The notes beneath the pieces were generated by a model that was not told the origin of the DNA, did no database searches, and was given only the letters and a program-made list of their open reading frames with translations. Shown in pieces: positions 1,997 to 54,968 of a DNA stretch of 64,000 nt (position 1 is the stretch's first letter; every line of letters starts with the position of its first letter). This stretch comes from Rhizobium sp. CIAT894 (lineage in GTDB: Bacteria > Pseudomonadota > Alphaproteobacteria > Rhizobiales > Rhizobiaceae): the NCBI RefSeq assembly GCF_000172795.2, contig NZ_CP020952.1, forward strand, positions 310,001-374,000. The letters are read 5' to 3'. The translations under genes were made by a program, and so were the position numbers.

Positions 1997-3324
1997 TATC
2001 CCTCGCTTTTCGCCAGGACGGGTTCGAACTGCGCCGTCGCCGCCTTCAACTCGGTTTCGGGATCGGCGCCGCCGATCATATTGGTGAGGCCGACGCCATA
2101 GATATCACGGAACTCGGTGACCGGAATGATGACCGGCAGTGCAAGCTGCGAGATCTTGCCGGAGCCGACGACGGCATCCAGCCATGCGCCCGGCATCTTG
2201 ACGCCTTCGCGGACCTTTGCATCCTCCAGCACGGACTGGCGGAAGGGAACGCCGGCGCCGGCCTGCAGCAGGCGTGCGCCCATTTCATGCGAAATCGCCC
2301 ATTGGCAGAACAGATAGGCGGCTTCCTTCTTCTGGCTCGCCGCGACGACGCCAAGCCCATCGCCGAAGGTGCCTGCGGCCTGTGCCTTCGGGCCCTTCGG
2401 CATGATGCCGTAACCGACCTGGCCGACGACCCGCGACTTTTCCGGGTTTTCGATCGGCGGCGCAAAACCGACGCCGTCAAGCCACATGCCGATCTTGCCC
2501 TGGAGGAAGGCCGACTGCGCCTCGGCCCAGTTGAAGCCGGAGACACCGGGAGGGGCGGTCTTGGTCATCAGCTTCTGGTAAAGCTTGGCTGCATCGACCG
2601 CTTCCGGCGATGTCGTGCGCAGCTTGCCGTCGGGGCCGAGCGGGCTCGAGCCGTAGCCGAGCAGCAGCGACGTCCAAACCGGCGTATTGGCGTTCTTCAG
2701 GCCGCGGGCGACGAAGCCATAGGTGTTGGTCGAAGGATCGGTCAGCGCTTCGGCTGCACTTGCCAGTTCGTCGAAGCTCGTGGGATAGGCAAGTCCCTTC
2801 TTCTCGAACAGCGCCTTGTTCCAGTAGATGATCCAGTAATCGACCGAAAAGCGAAGAGAGCGCAGAACGCCGCCGGCGTCCTTGGCGAAGGCAAGACCGG
2901 CTTCAGCGAAATCGCCCTCTGTCAGGGACGGGTCGGTCAGCGAGGGATCCTTGAGGAAGCCGCTGATATCGGCAAGCCAGCCACCCTTTTCGAACTGCCG
3001 CTTCTGGACGTGATAGCTCATGTGCACGACGTCGAAGCTCGGCTTGCCGGAGCTGAGCTCGATCGTCGTCTTCTGGCGCTGCTGCTGTTCGGGCGTCGCC
3101 TCAGCATTGACCTTGATGCCGGTCAGCGTCTCGAATTCAGGCAGGTACTTCAGAAGGATTTCACTGCGCGGGCTCTTGACCAGGTTGACTTCGAGCGTCG
3201 TGCCGGTGAAGCGCTTCCAGTCGACGGCAGCAAATGCCGAGCGCATGCCGAGCATGCTGCCGGCCCCAAGCGCGGCCGTGCCCGCCAGAAAGCCTCGGCG
3301 CGTCGGGTTCAAAAATGATGGCAT
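1996..3324 (-). CDS. Sugar ABC transporter substrate-binding protein (family 1)
   Basis: Periplasmic receptor of the CUT1 importer, 442 residues, typical for this family. It begins with a twin-arginine-type leader: TRRGFLAGTAALGAGSMLG followed by an AFA-type cleavage site near residue 33, so export may be through Tat. The body has the extracellular solute-binding family 1 pattern, for example the hinge-region segment WIIYWNKALFEKKGL. A strong ribosome site (AGGAGGAGG) lies just before ATG 3324. It sits between the GntR regulator and the permeases, the normal CUT1 order. The ligand is unknown. Confidence 0.92.
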   Translation of the reverse strand: MPSFLNPTRRGFLAGTAALGAGSMLGMRSAFAAVDWKRFTGTTLEVNLVKSPRSEILLKYLPEFETLTGIKVNAEATPEQQQRQKTTIELSSGKPSFDVVHMSYHVQKRQFEKGGWLADISGFLKDPSLTDPSLTEGDFAEAGLAFAKDAGGVLRSLRFSVDYWIIYWNKALFEKKGLAYPTSFDELASAAEALTDPSTNTYGFVARGLKNANTPVWTSLLLGYGSSPLGPDGKLRTTSPEAVDAAKLYQKLMTKTAPPGVSGFNWAEAQSAFLQGKIGMWLDGVGFAPPIENPEKSRVVGQVGYGIMPKGPKAQAAGTFGDGLGVVAASQKKEAAYLFCQWAISHEMGARLLQAGAGVPFRQSVLEDAKVREGVKMPGAWLDAVVGSGKISQLALPVIIPVTEFRDIYGVGLTNMIGGADPETELKAATAQFEPVLAKSEG

Positions 3325-3378
3325 GTGATCCTCCTCCTTTTGCCGGCGATCTCCTCACCTCCGGCTGATTATTCCCGA

Positions 3379-4056
3379 TTATATCCTCAGCGCACGATCC
3401 CTTGCACCGTTGATGTGTGCGACAAGGCTGTTGACGGCGTCCTCCGCCGATCGTCGCTCGATCGCCTCGAGCACCTTCAGATGCTCGCCCATGACAGGCC
3501 CGACGTGACCGTCGATCCGAAACCGATCCTGGCTGATCAGGCGCATCTTGATCGAGTTCACGCGGTAGGCGTTCGAGATGATAGTGTTGCCAAGCGCATC
3601 GATAAAGGCATCGTGCATGCCCCAATCGACGGCCTGCGCGCGCAGTTCCAACTCATGCGAGCCGTCGCCGCTGCGGATGGCGTCGGCGATATCGCGATGC
3701 TGCTTCAAGAGCTTGGCGATCGTCTCGTCCGACGCGGACCGAGTGAAGAGCGCCACGGCCTCCTTCTCCAGGAAGACACGCAGCTGGAATGCCTCACGAA
3801 TAAGGTTGAGATCGATGTGAGCGATCTGCAAACCCCGTTGCGGCACGGTCTTGATCAGCCCTTCGGCTTCCAGCCTTGGGATGAGTTCGCGGATGGCGCC
3901 GAGCGTCAGTCCGGTCAGCTCCACGAGACGGCGCTGGGAAACGAACTGGCCGGGACGCACGTCACGCGCAAGAAGATGGCGCGTGAAGCTCGCATACGCC
4001 TTTTCCCGCAGCGTCGGCTGCTCGTCCGTTTCGTCCATCGCCTCTTCCCGAAACAT
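3379..4056 (-). CDS. GntR-family transcriptional regulator (FCD-type)
   Basis: DNA-binding regulator of 225 residues. The N-terminal winged helix-turn-helix covers about residues 10-75 (LVELTGLTLGAIRELIPRLEAEGLI, recognition helix near 45-60) and is followed by an all-helical FCD effector domain (about 85-215). It starts 6 bases after the aldolase gene and is followed by the importer genes, so it probably controls this operon in response to the imported compound or an intermediate. A second in-frame ATG at 4038 has a better-placed GAGG and may be the true start. The effector is not predictable. Confidence 0.88.
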   Translation of the reverse strand: MFREEAMDETDEQPTLREKAYASFTRHLLARDVRPGQFVSQRRLVELTGLTLGAIRELIPRLEAEGLIKTVPQRGLQIAHIDLNLIREAFQLRVFLEKEAVALFTRSASDETIAKLLKQHRDIADAIRSGDGSHELELRAQAVDWGMHDAFIDALGNTIISNAYRVNSIKMRLISQDRFRIDGHVGPVMGEHLKVLEAIERRSAEDAVNSLVAHINGARDRALRI

Positions 4057-33977: not shown

Positions 33978-35066
33978 CTATTTCCAGCTGGTATAATCGG
34001 CAGCAACGCAACCAAACGGTGCGCGTTCCTGAGCAAACCGGTTCTTCAACTGCTCGCATCCCCACTCGTTCAGCGGCGCCGGCATGAGATTGTTGATGTC
34101 CATGCCAGGCGATTGGAATTGCGTCGAGGAACTCGTGACGTACCAAAGCCAGAAGCCGACCACACCGACGGCGATCAGAAGCAACACACCGAAGAAAAGC
34201 TTCAGCCGCTTCCAGACCGATACCGTCCTTATCGGTTCTTCGATCAACATCGGCCCACTCGGATCGCCGTCCCGCCGATATGGCGCAAGAGCCGCGGTGC
34301 GCTCGGCATCGGTCAGCTCAACGCGCTGCAGACGATCGTCCAGAAGCACCGGCAGGGCTGTGTTGCCGTGCCTGACGGCCAGCCCGATAGCCTTGCCGTT
34401 GGCTTCACCGACGATCAGCGGCTCCTGTCCACTCTTCATGCGCGTATAAGCCGATCGCCCCGTTTTGTCGGCGGCAATCTTGTCATTGTAGGTGATGGAG
34501 AGAACGCCGCGTTTGCGGTCGAATGCACCGATCTCGACCGGGACGGGGATCAGCCTGGCAGGCCGGCGCAACTGTCCCTTGACCCGCCAAATGCGGAGAC
34601 CGAGAAAAATCGTTCCCAGGCTCGTGCCGCCAAGCAGGAGGACGAATAGAGTGAGCGTGATGATCCTGTTCCAGAGCATGTCCAGACCCAGGCTTATCGT
34701 CGCGAGTTCCGGATGATCGGCCGAAATCACAAGATCGGTTTCATAGTCGCCGGTGTGGAAATCGACGAACATCACCTCGACCTCGGTGTCGTAGTTTCGC
34801 CCACCGTAGCTGTAGACAAGGCGTGCCTCGCAGTCCGTGAAGACTGCCTTGCGTGTCGTGCATCGCCCGTTTTGCACGTCGCCATCTTCGAGCACCAAGG
34901 GGTTCTGGCTGATCTGGAAATCACGGATCACCCCCGGGGCTTCCCAGACGAATAGAAAGACAGCCAGTGCCAGGATTACAGGCGTTGACCAGAAGTAAGC
35001 GTTCGGCGTGGAAATGACGTCGCGCGCCAATGAAAGCGGGCGACTTGGAAGAACAAGCGAAGTCAA
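33978..35066 (-). CDS. Membrane protein of unknown function, DUF3592-like layout
   Basis: A 362-residue protein I do not firmly recognise. One membrane helix at about 28-44, then an exported domain of about 85 residues with paired cysteines (GRCTTRKAVFTDCEARLVYSY, cysteines near 67 and 78), a second helix at about 133-157, a cytoplasmic charged region, a third helix near 290-312, and a tail ending CEQLKNRF...APFGCVAADYTSWK. The helix-exported beta domain-helix arrangement recalls DUF3592 proteins, unverified. It converges with the ABC operon and is monocistronic. Confidence 0.75.
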   Translation of the reverse strand: MTSLVLPSRPLSLARDVISTPNAYFWSTPVILALAVFLFVWEAPGVIRDFQISQNPLVLEDGDVQNGRCTTRKAVFTDCEARLVYSYGGRNYDTEVEVMFVDFHTGDYETDLVISADHPELATISLGLDMLWNRIITLTLFVLLLGGTSLGTIFLGLRIWRVKGQLRRPARLIPVPVEIGAFDRKRGVLSITYNDKIAADKTGRSAYTRMKSGQEPLIVGEANGKAIGLAVRHGNTALPVLLDDRLQRVELTDAERTAALAPYRRDGDPSGPMLIEEPIRTVSVWKRLKLFFGVLLLIAVGVVGFWLWYVTSSSTQFQSPGMDINNLMPAPLNEWGCEQLKNRFAQERAPFGCVAADYTSWK

Positions 35067-45578: not shown

Positions 45579-45603
45579 GGAACCGTGTGAAATTTCAGGC
45601 GTT
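45579..45603 (+). promoter_or_regulatory. EcfG/RpoE2-type promoter of the PLD gene
   Basis: GGAAC (45579-45583), 16 bases, CGTT (45600-45603): an exact fit to the consensus I know for the alphaproteobacterial general-stress sigma factor. Transcription would start near 45610, about 20 bases before ATG 45632, which argues against the upstream in-frame ATG 45587. Confidence 0.7.
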
Positions 45604-45631: not shown

Positions 45632-47143
45632 ATGAGCGCATTCGAAACCACATCCGAACAAGCGTACCTGACCCGAACAAAAGCGCAACATCCTGGAAGC
45701 CAAAAAGAGGGGAATACGGCATTGCGGCTCCAAGGACGCGCGGAAAAAGCCGCCTTTCTGATCAACGGCGACAGATATTTCGCCGAAGTCGCGCGAGCAT
45801 TACGGCAGGCGCGGCGCACTGTCTGGATCGTCGGCTGGGATTTCAATCCCGACATTCTGTTGGAACCGGAAAAATCCGGCGAAACATTGGCCGATCTGCT
45901 GCATGCGGCGGCGGCGGCCAATCCCGAACTCGAAATACGTATCCTCATCTGGGCACTCGGACCGATCTATTCGGACAAATCCCTGCAGGTGCTTCGGAAG
46001 AAGAATTTCCCGAAGAACGCCAGGATCGATCTGCGCTTCGATCTTCCGGGCGCCCTGCGAGGCTGTCATCATCAAAAGCTCGTCTGCATCGACGATGCAC
46101 TGTCCTTCATCGGCGGCATGGATCTGACGTCGCGGCGATGGGATACAAGGCGCCACCGCGCCAGGGAAAAGCTGCGGTGCGACCCCGAGGGCGTTTCCTA
46201 CGATCCGCTGCATGACGTTCAGGCGATGGTCACGGGCGACGCGGCCGGGCTGATCGGCGATATCGCCAGGCAACGCTGGGAAAAAGCCACCGGCGAAAAG
46301 CACCTGCCGCTCGCCGAGGGCTCGCCGTTCGCATGGCCGGACGATCTAGCCGTTTCACTGCGAGAAATCCCGGTCGGCTTGGTGCTGACGGAGCCGTCGA
46401 CCACCTTCCGAACCGGCATCAGCGACGGCATCGCCTCGACATTGAACATCATCTCCCGGGCGCGGCGCCAGCTTTACATCGAGGCGCAATATCTCGCCTC
46501 CTTTCGTGTCGCCGACGCCATTGCCGCGCGGCTGCGGGAAGAAGATGGGCCGGAAGTGGTCATCATCTGCACGCGCAGCTCTCACGGGCTGATCGAAAAA
46601 CTCGTCATGGGCAGCAACCGCGACCGCCTCATCCGACGCCTCAAGAGGGCTGATCGCGCAGATCGCCTGCGGGTCTATTATCCCGTCGTGCCCGGCCCCG
46701 TGCCCATGCCGGGAAAGGATAGCGAGGTGGAGGTCCTGATCCATTCCAAACTGATACTTGCCGATGACGCGTTGGTCCGGATCGGCTCCTCCAATCTCAA
46801 CAACCGCTCGGAAGGACTGGATTGCGAATGCGACATGCTGTTCGAGGCGGCCTGCGACGAGCATCACCGTGCTATCGCAGATCTGCGCAACCGCCTGCTG
46901 GCCGAATATCTCGGAACGACCAGCGAAACCTTTGCCGCGGCCTTTGGGGAAAGCGGCTCGATGATTGCGGCGATCGATGCGTTGAGTAACGGGCCGCGCC
47001 GCTTGAGGGAATTCACGGTCGAACCGTCCGGCAGTGTTTCACCGATCGCAGGCACCGCGATCTTCGACCCGGCTCGCCCCTTCCTCCCTCTACACCGACT
47101 GGGCCTCGGCTCCCTCGTCCGCCTGCTGGCCCGCCCGGCGTGA
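45632..47143 (+). CDS. Phospholipase D/cardiolipin synthase-like protein (YbhO/ClsB type)
   Basis: A 503-residue enzyme with two HKD catalytic motifs: CHHQKLVCIDDALSFIGGMD (about 147-166) and LIHSKLILADDALVRIGSSN (about 370-389). Both have the HxKx4D core, so it is probably active in transferring or hydrolysing phosphodiesters, as in cardiolipin synthesis. No membrane helix is evident at the N-terminus, unlike ClsA. Neighbours are homologues of YbhN and YbhP, matching the E. coli clsB(ybhO) cluster. An exact EcfG-type promoter precedes it, suggesting stress-induced membrane lipid remodelling. Confidence 0.88.
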   Translation: MSAFETTSEQAYLTRTKAQHPGSQKEGNTALRLQGRAEKAAFLINGDRYFAEVARALRQARRTVWIVGWDFNPDILLEPEKSGETLADLLHAAAAANPELEIRILIWALGPIYSDKSLQVLRKKNFPKNARIDLRFDLPGALRGCHHQKLVCIDDALSFIGGMDLTSRRWDTRRHRAREKLRCDPEGVSYDPLHDVQAMVTGDAAGLIGDIARQRWEKATGEKHLPLAEGSPFAWPDDLAVSLREIPVGLVLTEPSTTFRTGISDGIASTLNIISRARRQLYIEAQYLASFRVADAIAARLREEDGPEVVIICTRSSHGLIEKLVMGSNRDRLIRRLKRADRADRLRVYYPVVPGPVPMPGKDSEVEVLIHSKLILADDALVRIGSSNLNNRSEGLDCECDMLFEAACDEHHRAIADLRNRLLAEYLGTTSETFAAAFGESGSMIAAIDALSNGPRRLREFTVEPSGSVSPIAGTAIFDPARPFLPLHRLGLGSLVRLLARPA

Positions 47144-48052
47144 GCCTCGCCGGAAGACGACCTCGGTGATGAGAAGAAGCGTTGTGCCGAGCGCCAGCGG
47201 AATGAAGAAATAGGTGCAACGGAACGCAATCAGCGCGCCGATCGAAGCCTCTTGCGGCACGGCATAGGAGACCGTCGCTTCCAGCACACCGAGACCGCCC
47301 GGCACATGGGTTGCAAGGATCGCCGAATTGGCGAGAACGTAAGCCGTCACCGAGCGGAAGAAGGCGACGTCGCCAAAGGCCGAGAGCATCTGGTGCAGGC
47401 AGGCGGAAACGAACATGAAATTGATTGTCCCGATTCCGATCTGCGCCAGCGCGATCGAAAATCGTGGCAATTGAAACGACCAGCGCCATAGGCGCAGCTT
47501 GCCGCGGATAAAAGACGCCAGGCCGGCATAGGTGACCGGAGCGATCAGCGCCATCGCGCCGAAGAGGCGAGCACTTACCGCGTCGAGGCGCAGCAGACGC
47601 GCTGCATCCTCGGGATTGACGATCAGGGCAAGGCTGCCGAGCGTGATGAGCCCGAGCCCCACCGTGACACCGCAAAACAGGATGATCTTCGCTACGTCCT
47701 CCGTCGTCAGGCCCCAGCGGGAATAATATCGATAGCGGAAGGCGCCGCTGCTCAGCCCGGCAAAGCCGATATTGTGGCCGAGCGAAAGGCTGATGAACGA
47801 GGCCAGCGCGATCTTCCGGTAAGGCAGGGACTTGCCAAGTGAACGGATCGCCAGGAGATCGAAGCAGCTCAGGCAGAGATAGGATGCCGCAGCAAAGAGA
47901 AGCGCCATGCAGAAATTCGAAAGGGGGATGCTCCCAACCGACTTGACGATCTGCTCCAGGCTGTACTGTTGAAATATGCGGTAGAGAAGAAAGATCGCAA
48001 GGCAAAAGGCGGCTACGAGCAGTCCATTCCAGATTATGTTTTTCAAGCTCAT
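47090..48052 (-). CDS. YbhN/UPF0104-type membrane protein (LPG synthase transmembrane-like)
   Basis: A 320-residue protein with about eight membrane helices. FISLSLGHNIGFAGLSSGAF and GVTVGLGLITLGSLALIVNP and the HVPGGLGVLEATV motif identify the lysylphosphatidylglycerol-synthase transmembrane/UPF0104 family; the soluble aminoacyl-transferase domain is missing. E. coli YbhN sits beside clsB and is thought to take part in envelope lipid handling. Its 3' end overlaps that of the PLD gene by 54 bases on the opposite strand. An EcfG-type promoter is located 83-107 bases upstream. Confidence 0.88.
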   Translation of the reverse strand: MSLKNIIWNGLLVAAFCLAIFLLYRIFQQYSLEQIVKSVGSIPLSNFCMALLFAAASYLCLSCFDLLAIRSLGKSLPYRKIALASFISLSLGHNIGFAGLSSGAFRYRYYSRWGLTTEDVAKIILFCGVTVGLGLITLGSLALIVNPEDAARLLRLDAVSARLFGAMALIAPVTYAGLASFIRGKLRLWRWSFQLPRFSIALAQIGIGTINFMFVSACLHQMLSAFGDVAFFRSVTAYVLANSAILATHVPGGLGVLEATVSYAVPQEASIGALIAFRCTYFFIPLALGTTLLLITEVVFRRGSRRAGQQADEGAEAQSV

Positions 48053-48132
48053 CGATCATTCCATTTCCGAGGTGAGAGTCCAACGCATCGTGTTCTCCGA
48101 AAGAAGGCGCGACACTCCAGGCTCGATTATCC

Positions 48133-48159
48133 GGAACGATCAAACGAGTTCTGTGTTCC
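48133..48159. promoter_or_regulatory. Overlapping bidirectional EcfG/RpoE2-type promoter
   Basis: Minus strand: GGAAC (48159-48155), 16 bases, CGTT (48138-48135), exact consensus, towards the YbhN-like gene at 48052. Plus strand: GGAAC (48133-48137), 16 bases, TGTT (48154-48157), one mismatch, towards the YbhP-like gene at 48233. The -35 of each strand overlaps the -10 of the other, so only one polymerase can bind at a time. Confidence 0.65.
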
Positions 48160-48232
48160 CCCGCAGGAACAGTTCGCTGTTCTCCCCGGGAAACGCGTTC
48201 TGAGTTGGGACGAACGAGCTTTCAGCAGGTCC

Positions 48233-48961
48233 ATGCCGGATAAATCGATCAAACTCCTGACCTATAACGTACACAGCTGCATCGGCAGCGACCGGAAGCT
48301 CGATCCCGGTCGTATCGCCTCCGTCATTGCCGAAGCGGAGGCCGACATCGTGGCACTTCAGGAGGTCGATGTCTCAAGGCGCAGGACCGGCGGCGTCGAC
48401 CAGGCGCATGCAATCGCTTCGCCTCTGAAGATGCAGGCGCATTTCCACCCGGCATTGTCGATTGCCGAAGAGCAGTATGGCGATGCGATCATCACCGCGC
48501 TGCCGACAGGCGCGGTGAAGGCCGGTCCGCTGCCATCCATCGGCGAGCAGCGCGGCGCGCTTTCCGTCGAAGTCCTGGTTGGCGACAGGAAGCTGCTCGT
48601 CGTCAATACCCATCTCGGCCTTCGAGGGCGCGAGCGCATCCGGCAGATGACGACGCTGTTGAACGCCGGCTGGCTGCATGGGAGCGTGGGCGAATCCCTT
48701 CCCGCGATCCTCTGCGGCGACTTTAATGCCATTCCGGCATCGGCGACTTATCGGCTGGCTGCACGGTCATTGAAGGACGCCCAACTCGCAGGCAGCACCG
48801 CGGCGAGAGCGACCTTTCCCGCCCGCTACCCACTGATGCGCATCGACCATATCTTCGTCACCGACGATCTCGTCGTCAAAAGATCGGCGGTCATGGAAAG
48901 CCGGCTGACGAGAGTGGCGTCCGATCACCTCCCCCTGCTTGCTGAAATCGGCTTCGCCTGA
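48233..48961 (+). CDS. Endonuclease/exonuclease/phosphatase family protein (YbhP type)
   Basis: A 242-residue Mg-dependent phosphodiesterase-fold protein. The family motifs are present: LTYNVHSCIG (Asn, about 9-18), ADIVALQEVD with the metal Glu (about 38-47), VVNTHLGLRGRERIRQM (His), ILCGDFNAIP and the terminal SDHLPLLAEI with catalytic Asp-His. No signal peptide. Members include YbhP, sphingomyelinases and DNases, so substrate could be a phospholipid headgroup. With the PLD-like and YbhN-like genes it completes the ybhOPN-type set. ATG 48233 starts the domain directly. Confidence 0.88.
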   Translation: MPDKSIKLLTYNVHSCIGSDRKLDPGRIASVIAEAEADIVALQEVDVSRRRTGGVDQAHAIASPLKMQAHFHPALSIAEEQYGDAIITALPTGAVKAGPLPSIGEQRGALSVEVLVGDRKLLVVNTHLGLRGRERIRQMTTLLNAGWLHGSVGESLPAILCGDFNAIPASATYRLAARSLKDAQLAGSTAARATFPARYPLMRIDHIFVTDDLVVKRSAVMESRLTRVASDHLPLLAEIGFA

Positions 48962-53682: not shown

Positions 53683-53707
53683 AACGGCTTCGTGCAGTGT
53701 CAGTTCC
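53683..53707 (-). promoter_or_regulatory. EcfG/RpoE2-type promoter facing the KTSC-like gene
   Basis: On the minus strand GGAAC (53707-53703), 16 bases, CGTT (53686-53683), an exact match. The gap 53510-53762 contains no other convincing gene, so the transcript has a long leader before 53509. Confidence 0.65.
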
Positions 53708-54880: not shown

Positions 54881-54905
54881 AACAGGGGACGGCAGATATT
54901 GTTCC
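54881..54905 (-). promoter_or_regulatory. EcfG/RpoE2-type promoter of the lipoprotein gene
   Basis: On the minus strand GGAAC (54905-54901), 16 bases, TGTT (54884-54881); one mismatch to CGTT. The predicted leader to ATG 54829 is about 45 bases. Confidence 0.55.
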
Positions 54906-54943: not shown

Positions 54944-54968
54944 GGAACAACCGCGCGATCGCGTCGTT
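54944..54968 (+). promoter_or_regulatory. EcfG/RpoE2-type promoter without an obvious gene
   Basis: On the plus strand GGAAC (54944-54948), 16 bases, CGTT (54965-54968), an exact match. Downstream lies only a 23-codon TTG-started frame (54999-55070 region) and the 3' end of the opposing RraA-like gene, where GCCGC-TTTA-GCGGC (55084-55097) forms a hairpin. It may drive a small or antisense RNA. Confidence 0.5.

Follow-up and report, generated by a model that had tools for sequence, protein, structure and literature searches.

The question raised by this locus is whether one short sequence between two divergent genes can act as a promoter in both directions for the same stress sigma factor, or whether one of two superimposed promoter matches is an accident of the consensus. 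The window analysed, a stretch of 64,000 nucleotides from Rhizobium sp. CIAT894, contains genes for products of 320 and 242 residues, here called ybhN-like and ybhP-like after the E. coli genes. The sequence between them at 48133-48159 is most probably one promoter that works in both directions under the general stress sigma factor EcfG (ECF15), serving ybhN to the left and ybhP to the right. A two-way promoter is preferred to coincidence because relatives keep the site where ybhN and ybhP diverge.

Sequence and geometry of the site

The site at 48133-48159 reads GGAACGATCAAACGAGTTCTGTGTTCC. The plus strand carries GGAAC-N16-TGTT and the minus strand GGAAC-N16-CGTT, offset by two bases (Table 1). 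The first-pass annotation had reported both motifs within 27 bases, and its sequence and spacing are confirmed by reading of the window; its explanation of the overlap is also right, as AACG is CGTT seen from the other side. Its description of the promoters as face-to-face is a misnomer, however, since the predicted transcripts diverge (leftward from ~48126, rightward from ~48166) without overlap. Measured against the EcfG consensus (GGAAC, CGTT and a 16-17 nt spacer), the leftward element is exact in the window and fits in 68 of the 69 loci of the tree described below, whereas the rightward element fits in its -35 and spacer and has TGTT instead of CGTT as its -10. The near-symmetry of bidirectional promoters is apparent in the palindromic arms, which are conserved. 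No sigma-70-like site was found in 47950-48330, where 0.3 would be expected by chance.

Table 1 Features of the ybhN-ybhP region, in window coordinates.
Feature	Position	Strand	Remarks
ybhN-like gene, 320 aa, LPG_synthase_TM (PF03706)	47090..48052	-	family search
ybhP-like gene, 242 aa, endonuclease/exonuclease/phosphatase family (PF03372)	48233..48961	+	family search
phospholipase D-like (PLD) gene, 503 aa, PF13091 and PF00614	45632..47143	+	convergent with ybhN
one-way EcfG-type promoter of PLD gene, GGAAC-N16-CGTT then TG	45579..45603	+	served as control
27-bp near-palindrome GGAACG-N15-TGTTCC	48133..48159	no strand	putative overlapping divergent EcfG-type promoters; read from sequence, kept in relatives
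rightward (ybhP) -35 GGAAC	48133..48137	+	first GG serves rightward direction only; both G in 69/69 rows
rightward (ybhP) -10 TGTT	48154..48157	+	first base over 69 rows: T 54, G 12, A 3, C 0
leftward (ybhN) -35 GGAAC	48159..48155	-	final plus-strand CC serves leftward direction only; 68/69 rows, exception L155
leftward (ybhN) -10 CGTT, exact consensus	48138..48135	-	69/69 rows
predicted leftward transcription start	48126 (about +/-2)	-	from TT-N8-G spacing in the available part of PMC6011840
predicted rightward transcription start	48166 (about +/-2)	+	from TT-N8-G spacing in the available part of PMC6011840

The convergent PLD and ybhN reading frames share 54 bases at their 3' ends (47090-47143). 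The ClsB model matched the PLD product far below its cut-off, and the Pfam/NCBIfam matches of the ybhN-like and ybhP-like products include no DNA-binding domain. An EcfG system is present in this genome: one NepR scored over the cut-off, at 55.9 bits, and adjoins ORFs whose sequences, read by eye, suggest an ECF sigma and PhyR. Two EcfG proteins occur in R. etli, and GGAAC-N16-CGTT was reported for targets of EcfG1 (PMC3892343); this sigma accepts a spacer of either 16 or 17 (PMC6011840).

Published regulation of the three genes was sought by keyword and by locus tag. The words 'endonuclease' and 'cardiolipin' are absent from the main text of PMC3892343, PMC3188799 and PMC4167512 (R. etli) and of PMC6180224 (S. 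meliloti), as is 'phospholipase' from the main text of PMC3892343, PMC3188799 and PMC6180224, and no tags of the form SMb2009x occur in PMC3616915. Of two tags with a possible link to this locus, SMb20091 is raised by RpoE5 and RpoE2, with no upstream motif given (PMC6180224), and SMb20094 has a start recorded upstream of it with a foreign ECF (PMC10880074). A literature search with R. etli locus tags guessed from map position found nothing.

Chance occurrence of the overlapped pair

Single matches to GGAAC-N16-YGTT number 7 in the window against 0.59 expected from shuffles, so this motif class is enriched here. Two further exact GGAAC-N16-CGTT matches lie on the minus strand at 34005-34029 and 53683-53707. 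Another pair of EcfG-type motifs, at 54881-54905 (-) and 54944-54968 (+), is divergent with 38 bp between its members and no overlap, and may offer a contrast to the present site.

Two such promoters overlap at little cost, the consensus being in part its own complement; given one promoter, a second takes about three more bases. The paired pattern was defined as GGAACR-N15/16-YGTTCC and the reversed pattern was used as the control. The genome itself showed no enrichment (3 against 3 in the control, and 5 against 8 with wider spacing), nor did 148 genomes of the genus (674 against 882), the pattern standing above its control in 41 of them, equal in 17 and below in 90. As a bare pattern the overlap is unremarkable and on its own proves nothing. 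With the paired pattern at chance genome-wide, conservation must therefore decide.

The other occurrences of the pattern were inspected. Among the five places in the genome itself (wider spacing), the other two with EcfG spacing (L071 and L072) sit inside mechanical ORFs, and of nine places from relatives seven overlap an ORF of at least 100 aa, L139 and L142 being the exceptions. One place, L138, is a divergent gap between Nramp-type transporter-like and S49-type peptidase-like ORFs, which we take by eye to be mntH and sohB, with the pair at 1982-2009. The gene was present in 60 genomes, and 30 loci (L175-L204) were compared. This type of gap has a leftward EcfG-like motif, and the overlapped pair occurs in only five of the 30 loci. 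The gap was rejected as a second conserved case, the pair looking incidental, and no second conserved overlapped pair is claimed.

Conservation and gene order in relatives

A search for related loci gave 69, of which the 47 from Rhizobium and Rhizobiales isolates (L001-L044, L046, L049 and L050) were used; the 22 left out belonged to other groups or were weak matches, and a palindrome scan of six of these (L045, L047, L048 and L051-L053) gave no match. GGAACG...GTTCC lies upstream of ybhP in all 47 loci, compared with 7 of 14,100 shuffled upstream regions, and YGTT is also kept on both strands in 42 of them (3 of 14,100 shuffled regions). The palindrome is present as well in R. etli CFN42 (L105), S. 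meliloti 2011 (L205) and S. fredii NGR234 (L206). Among 48 loci compared, R. etli CFN42 included, ybhN is divergent in 45; it was not found in L033 and L036, and a remnant is left in L049.

Gene order was then compared with presence of the palindrome in two wider samples. In the family sample of 199 genomes, 30 had ybhP at 1e-30. With ybhN divergent from ybhP, the palindrome occurs in 20 of 21 loci; with ybhN on the same strand as ybhP or not found, it occurs in one of nine (L172). The order sample comprised 397 genomes, 31 of them with ybhP, from which 25 new loci were read, 24 outside the family. None of these 24 has the palindrome, and in them ybhN either comes after ybhP in the same orientation or was not found within 1.5 kb; the single new locus from the genus of the window is divergent and has it. 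Fisher tests gave p ~1e-5 and ~1e-12, values that treat related genomes as independent and serve as a guide only. Present with the divergent order and rare otherwise, the palindrome therefore goes with that order. The first-pass annotation had named beforehand a lack of the paired motif in relatives as grounds for giving up its proposal, and the motif proved to be conserved (47/47 loci and 20/21 divergent family loci).

Several loci depart from this pattern. In L172 the order of ybhP and ybhN is that of an operon; GGAAC-N16-CGTT is matched exactly on both strands, and 6 nt past the palindrome comes an ATG. This palindrome may be due to chance, the search of the genus around it having covered two genomes, one with ybhP. 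The whole palindrome, including the leftward -35, is kept in L033 and L036, in which no ybhN was found, and in L049, with its C-terminal ybhN remnant. The divergent ybhN of S. fredii NGR234 (L206, ~2941-3925) looks like an interrupted gene, with a frame that is broken close to its beginning and a remainder ~1 kb from the palindrome. For these four palindromes kept without an intact ybhN, recent loss of the gene and another use of the site are both possible.

Constraint on individual positions

Base changes per column were counted on a tree of 69 ybhP proteins. The rows were found by ybhP match, with 18 family rows chosen as divergent and two rows (L046 and L163) identical, and the site GGAACG...GTTCC was present in each of the 69 loci tried except L155, which was entered as is. 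The GGAACG and GTT columns have no changes, a result that is partly built in, as rows entered through a search for GGAACG...GTTCC, and the two C columns have one change each. The six flanking columns on the left have 13-21 changes, the eight on the right 10-23 and the spacer columns counted 2-19. The site is 27 bases long in 50 rows and 28 in 19.

The GGAAC/GTTCC arms are thus the most conserved part of the site, and L033, L036 and L049 retain them with ybhN missing or a remnant, as might be expected if the palindrome were the binding site of a dimeric regulator and held no promoters. The two lengths speak against such a site, since they match the two accepted EcfG spacings, 16 and 17, which are also mixed among relatives at the PLD promoter; moreover, the published EcfG consensus accounts for half of the site, and the PLD gene nearby has an EcfG-type promoter of the ordinary kind. 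A regulator site in place of promoters is considered quite improbable.

Promoters being the preferred reading, the remaining question is whether both directions function. The alternative that only the leftward EcfG promoter works, the rightward match being a by-product of the self-complementary consensus, agrees with the chance level of paired matches genome-wide and with the L138-type gap, where the pair appears incidental. It also agrees with the tree, in which the leftward -10 is exact in 69/69 rows and the first base of the rightward one varies. The PLD promoter, matched exactly in 46 of the 69 rows, supplies a one-way control. There, too, the two columns that follow CGTT are under constraint, with 1 and 2 changes, the bases being TG, TC, TT or AG and never CC; CC follows 3 of 30 matches in the genome itself. 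At the palindrome only the identity of the CC is special, not constraint after CGTT as such. A leftward promoter alone nevertheless leaves the GG at 48133-48134 unexplained, as these bases lie outside the leftward consensus and yet never change in the 69 rows. L155 likewise has lost the leftward -35 and keeps the rightward GGAAC, GGTT and an ATG at +8. Together with the start codons considered next, these observations make a promoter for ybhN only an unlikely explanation.

In L033 and L036 a relaxed palindromic site, GGAACTG...TTGTTCC, was found 145 and 126 bases, respectively, before the PLD start. Such a site occurs in just these two of 51 PLD upstream regions, both from loci with no ybhN found beside ybhP. 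Like the CC after some matches elsewhere in the genome, these two sites weigh against the contrast with the PLD promoter.

Start codons

The position of the ybhP start codon follows the rightward -10 in distant relatives. Counted from the last T of the rightward -10, an in-frame ybhP ATG follows at a distance of 8-10 nt in 21 of the 32 rows with less than 70% identity, a position held within +/-1 nucleotide that a leftward promoter alone would not explain; 20 of the 21 rows are distinct (L046 and L163 being the same). For S. meliloti 2011, with this ATG at +10, no other in-frame start was found past the -10; several of the 21 rows have additional in-frame starts downstream. In PMC6011840 an RpoE2 promoter whose start was mapped is written GGAAC-N18-TT-N8-G; with the final G taken as the start, transcription would begin at the ninth base, within a base of the 21 ATGs. 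For S. meliloti, 171 leaderless starts are on record in the portion of PMC3616915 available. The spacing of the ATG suggests a leaderless ybhP mRNA in many distant relatives. No Shine-Dalgarno match occurs at the 21 ATGs, which is weak evidence because none occurs at the aligned ATG of 37/37 close rows either. The spacing does not extend to the clade of the window, in which the aligned ybhP ATG is 28-95 nt away from the -10, the window itself having 76. Among the 32 distant rows, 17 have a ybhN ATG 26-34 nt from the leftward -10, and a Shine-Dalgarno match accompanies it in 8 of these.

Inequality of the two directions

The rightward -10 is GGTT or AGTT in 15 of the 69 rows and is never CGTT. 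Its first base is also the base that follows the leftward GGAAC, and at the PLD promoter 45 of 46 rows have C, T or A after GGAAC. That the rightward -10 at the palindrome is never CGTT may therefore reflect avoidance of G in this position. Among the 30 matches in the genome itself, which are probably mostly background, G after GGAAC is not avoided (7/30); a trade-off between the two directions is thus something that we infer. On the bases of the two -10 elements, the promoter is probably stronger towards ybhN than towards ybhP.

Discussion

The proposal in the first-pass annotation that the divergent ybhN-like and ybhP-like genes have overlapping promoters of EcfG type is supported by the motifs and their conservation. 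As GGAAC(G) and CGTT(CC) are partly complementary, a near-palindrome of 27-28 bp would hold a full promoter on each strand. EcfG-RNA polymerase would bind in one orientation or the other, producing either a leftward ybhN or a rightward ybhP mRNA, and both genes would be induced together under stress. The directions would be unequal, with an exact CGTT leftward and TGTT rightward (some distant relatives having G or A as its first base), and ybhP would probably be translated from a leaderless mRNA in many distant relatives. From the comparison we infer dependence on EcfG, the start sites, the relative strengths, leaderless translation and mutual exclusion of the two polymerases, the last of which follows from the geometry.

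The same annotation had suggested a competitive toggle between the two genes. The full overlap, on which two polymerases could hardly bind at once, would allow it on geometric grounds only. A toggle needs feedback, and the family matches of both products are not regulators, so that no feedback is apparent; at the sigma-70 bidirectional promoters tested, competition arises only at raised activity, according to the available part of PMC12825309. The toggle is therefore unsupported, and of the explanations weighed it seems the least probable. A broader account of the bidirectional promoter is offered tentatively, as possible but short of probable. A half-palindromic stress-sigma consensus would have given rise to a dedicated bidirectional promoter in Rhizobiaceae when ybhN became divergent from ybhP. 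Its bias for ybhN over ybhP would be hard-wired, the base after each GGAAC being the first base of the other -10 and both perhaps never optimal, and the weaker message would be leaderless in many genera.

Bidirectional promoters are well described as a class, and Warman et al. 2021 reportedly described bidirectional sigma-70 promoters of bacteria. In the sections available of PMC10268837 and PMC12825309, these share a -10 and have starts 7-25 bp apart, most often 18. Five that were tested had basal activity too low for competition, which is possible on strong activation (PMC12825309, part available). As far as these portions describe them, the sigma-70 promoters resemble the present site in a pseudo-symmetrical sequence, polymerase binding in either orientation, divergent RNAs and mutually exclusive binding, the last three of these being predicted here; they differ in that here each -10 overlaps the -35 of the other and the sigma would be an ECF. 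No -10 is shared at the present site, its -10s being separated by 15 bp and its predicted starts ~40 bp apart; it is therefore no member of the sigma-70 class and would only work alike.

The EcfG, RpoE2 and RpoE4 (ECF15) promoters GGAAC-N16/17-CGTT, in the available parts of PMC3892343 and PMC6011840, have the same consensus as the leftward element, an accepted spacing and an EcfG-type locus in common with this site. The examples in those parts are treated as one-way, whereas the site here would be two-way, with TGTT as the rightward -10. In the intergenic region shared by hrpL and hrpJ of Pseudomonas syringae, too, holoenzyme with an ECF sigma acts at one promoter and influences its divergent neighbour (PMC5263251), as is predicted here; that neighbour depends on sigma-54, and the promoter elements lie side by side, whereas here they are superimposed. 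A search of an open-licence library listed no overlapped bidirectional promoter for an ECF sigma, an overlap of which the first-pass annotation likewise knew no described case.

The site would thus be a variant of the bidirectional promoter with a new geometry and an ECF sigma, an interpretation well supported by comparative sequence. Wherever the two genes diverge in the Rhizobiaceae sampled, the site is retained, which speaks for selection and against accident. If the interpretation is true, bidirectional promoters would extend from the housekeeping sigma to a stress ECF sigma, with a -10 over a -35 instead of a shared -10, and the site offers a small, testable case for how polymerase orientation is chosen. 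As PLD has its own conserved EcfG-type promoter, PLD, ybhN and ybhP may constitute a stress module. A bidirectional EcfG promoter at this position would link these three genes, which belong to envelope or phospholipid-type families, to the general stress response.
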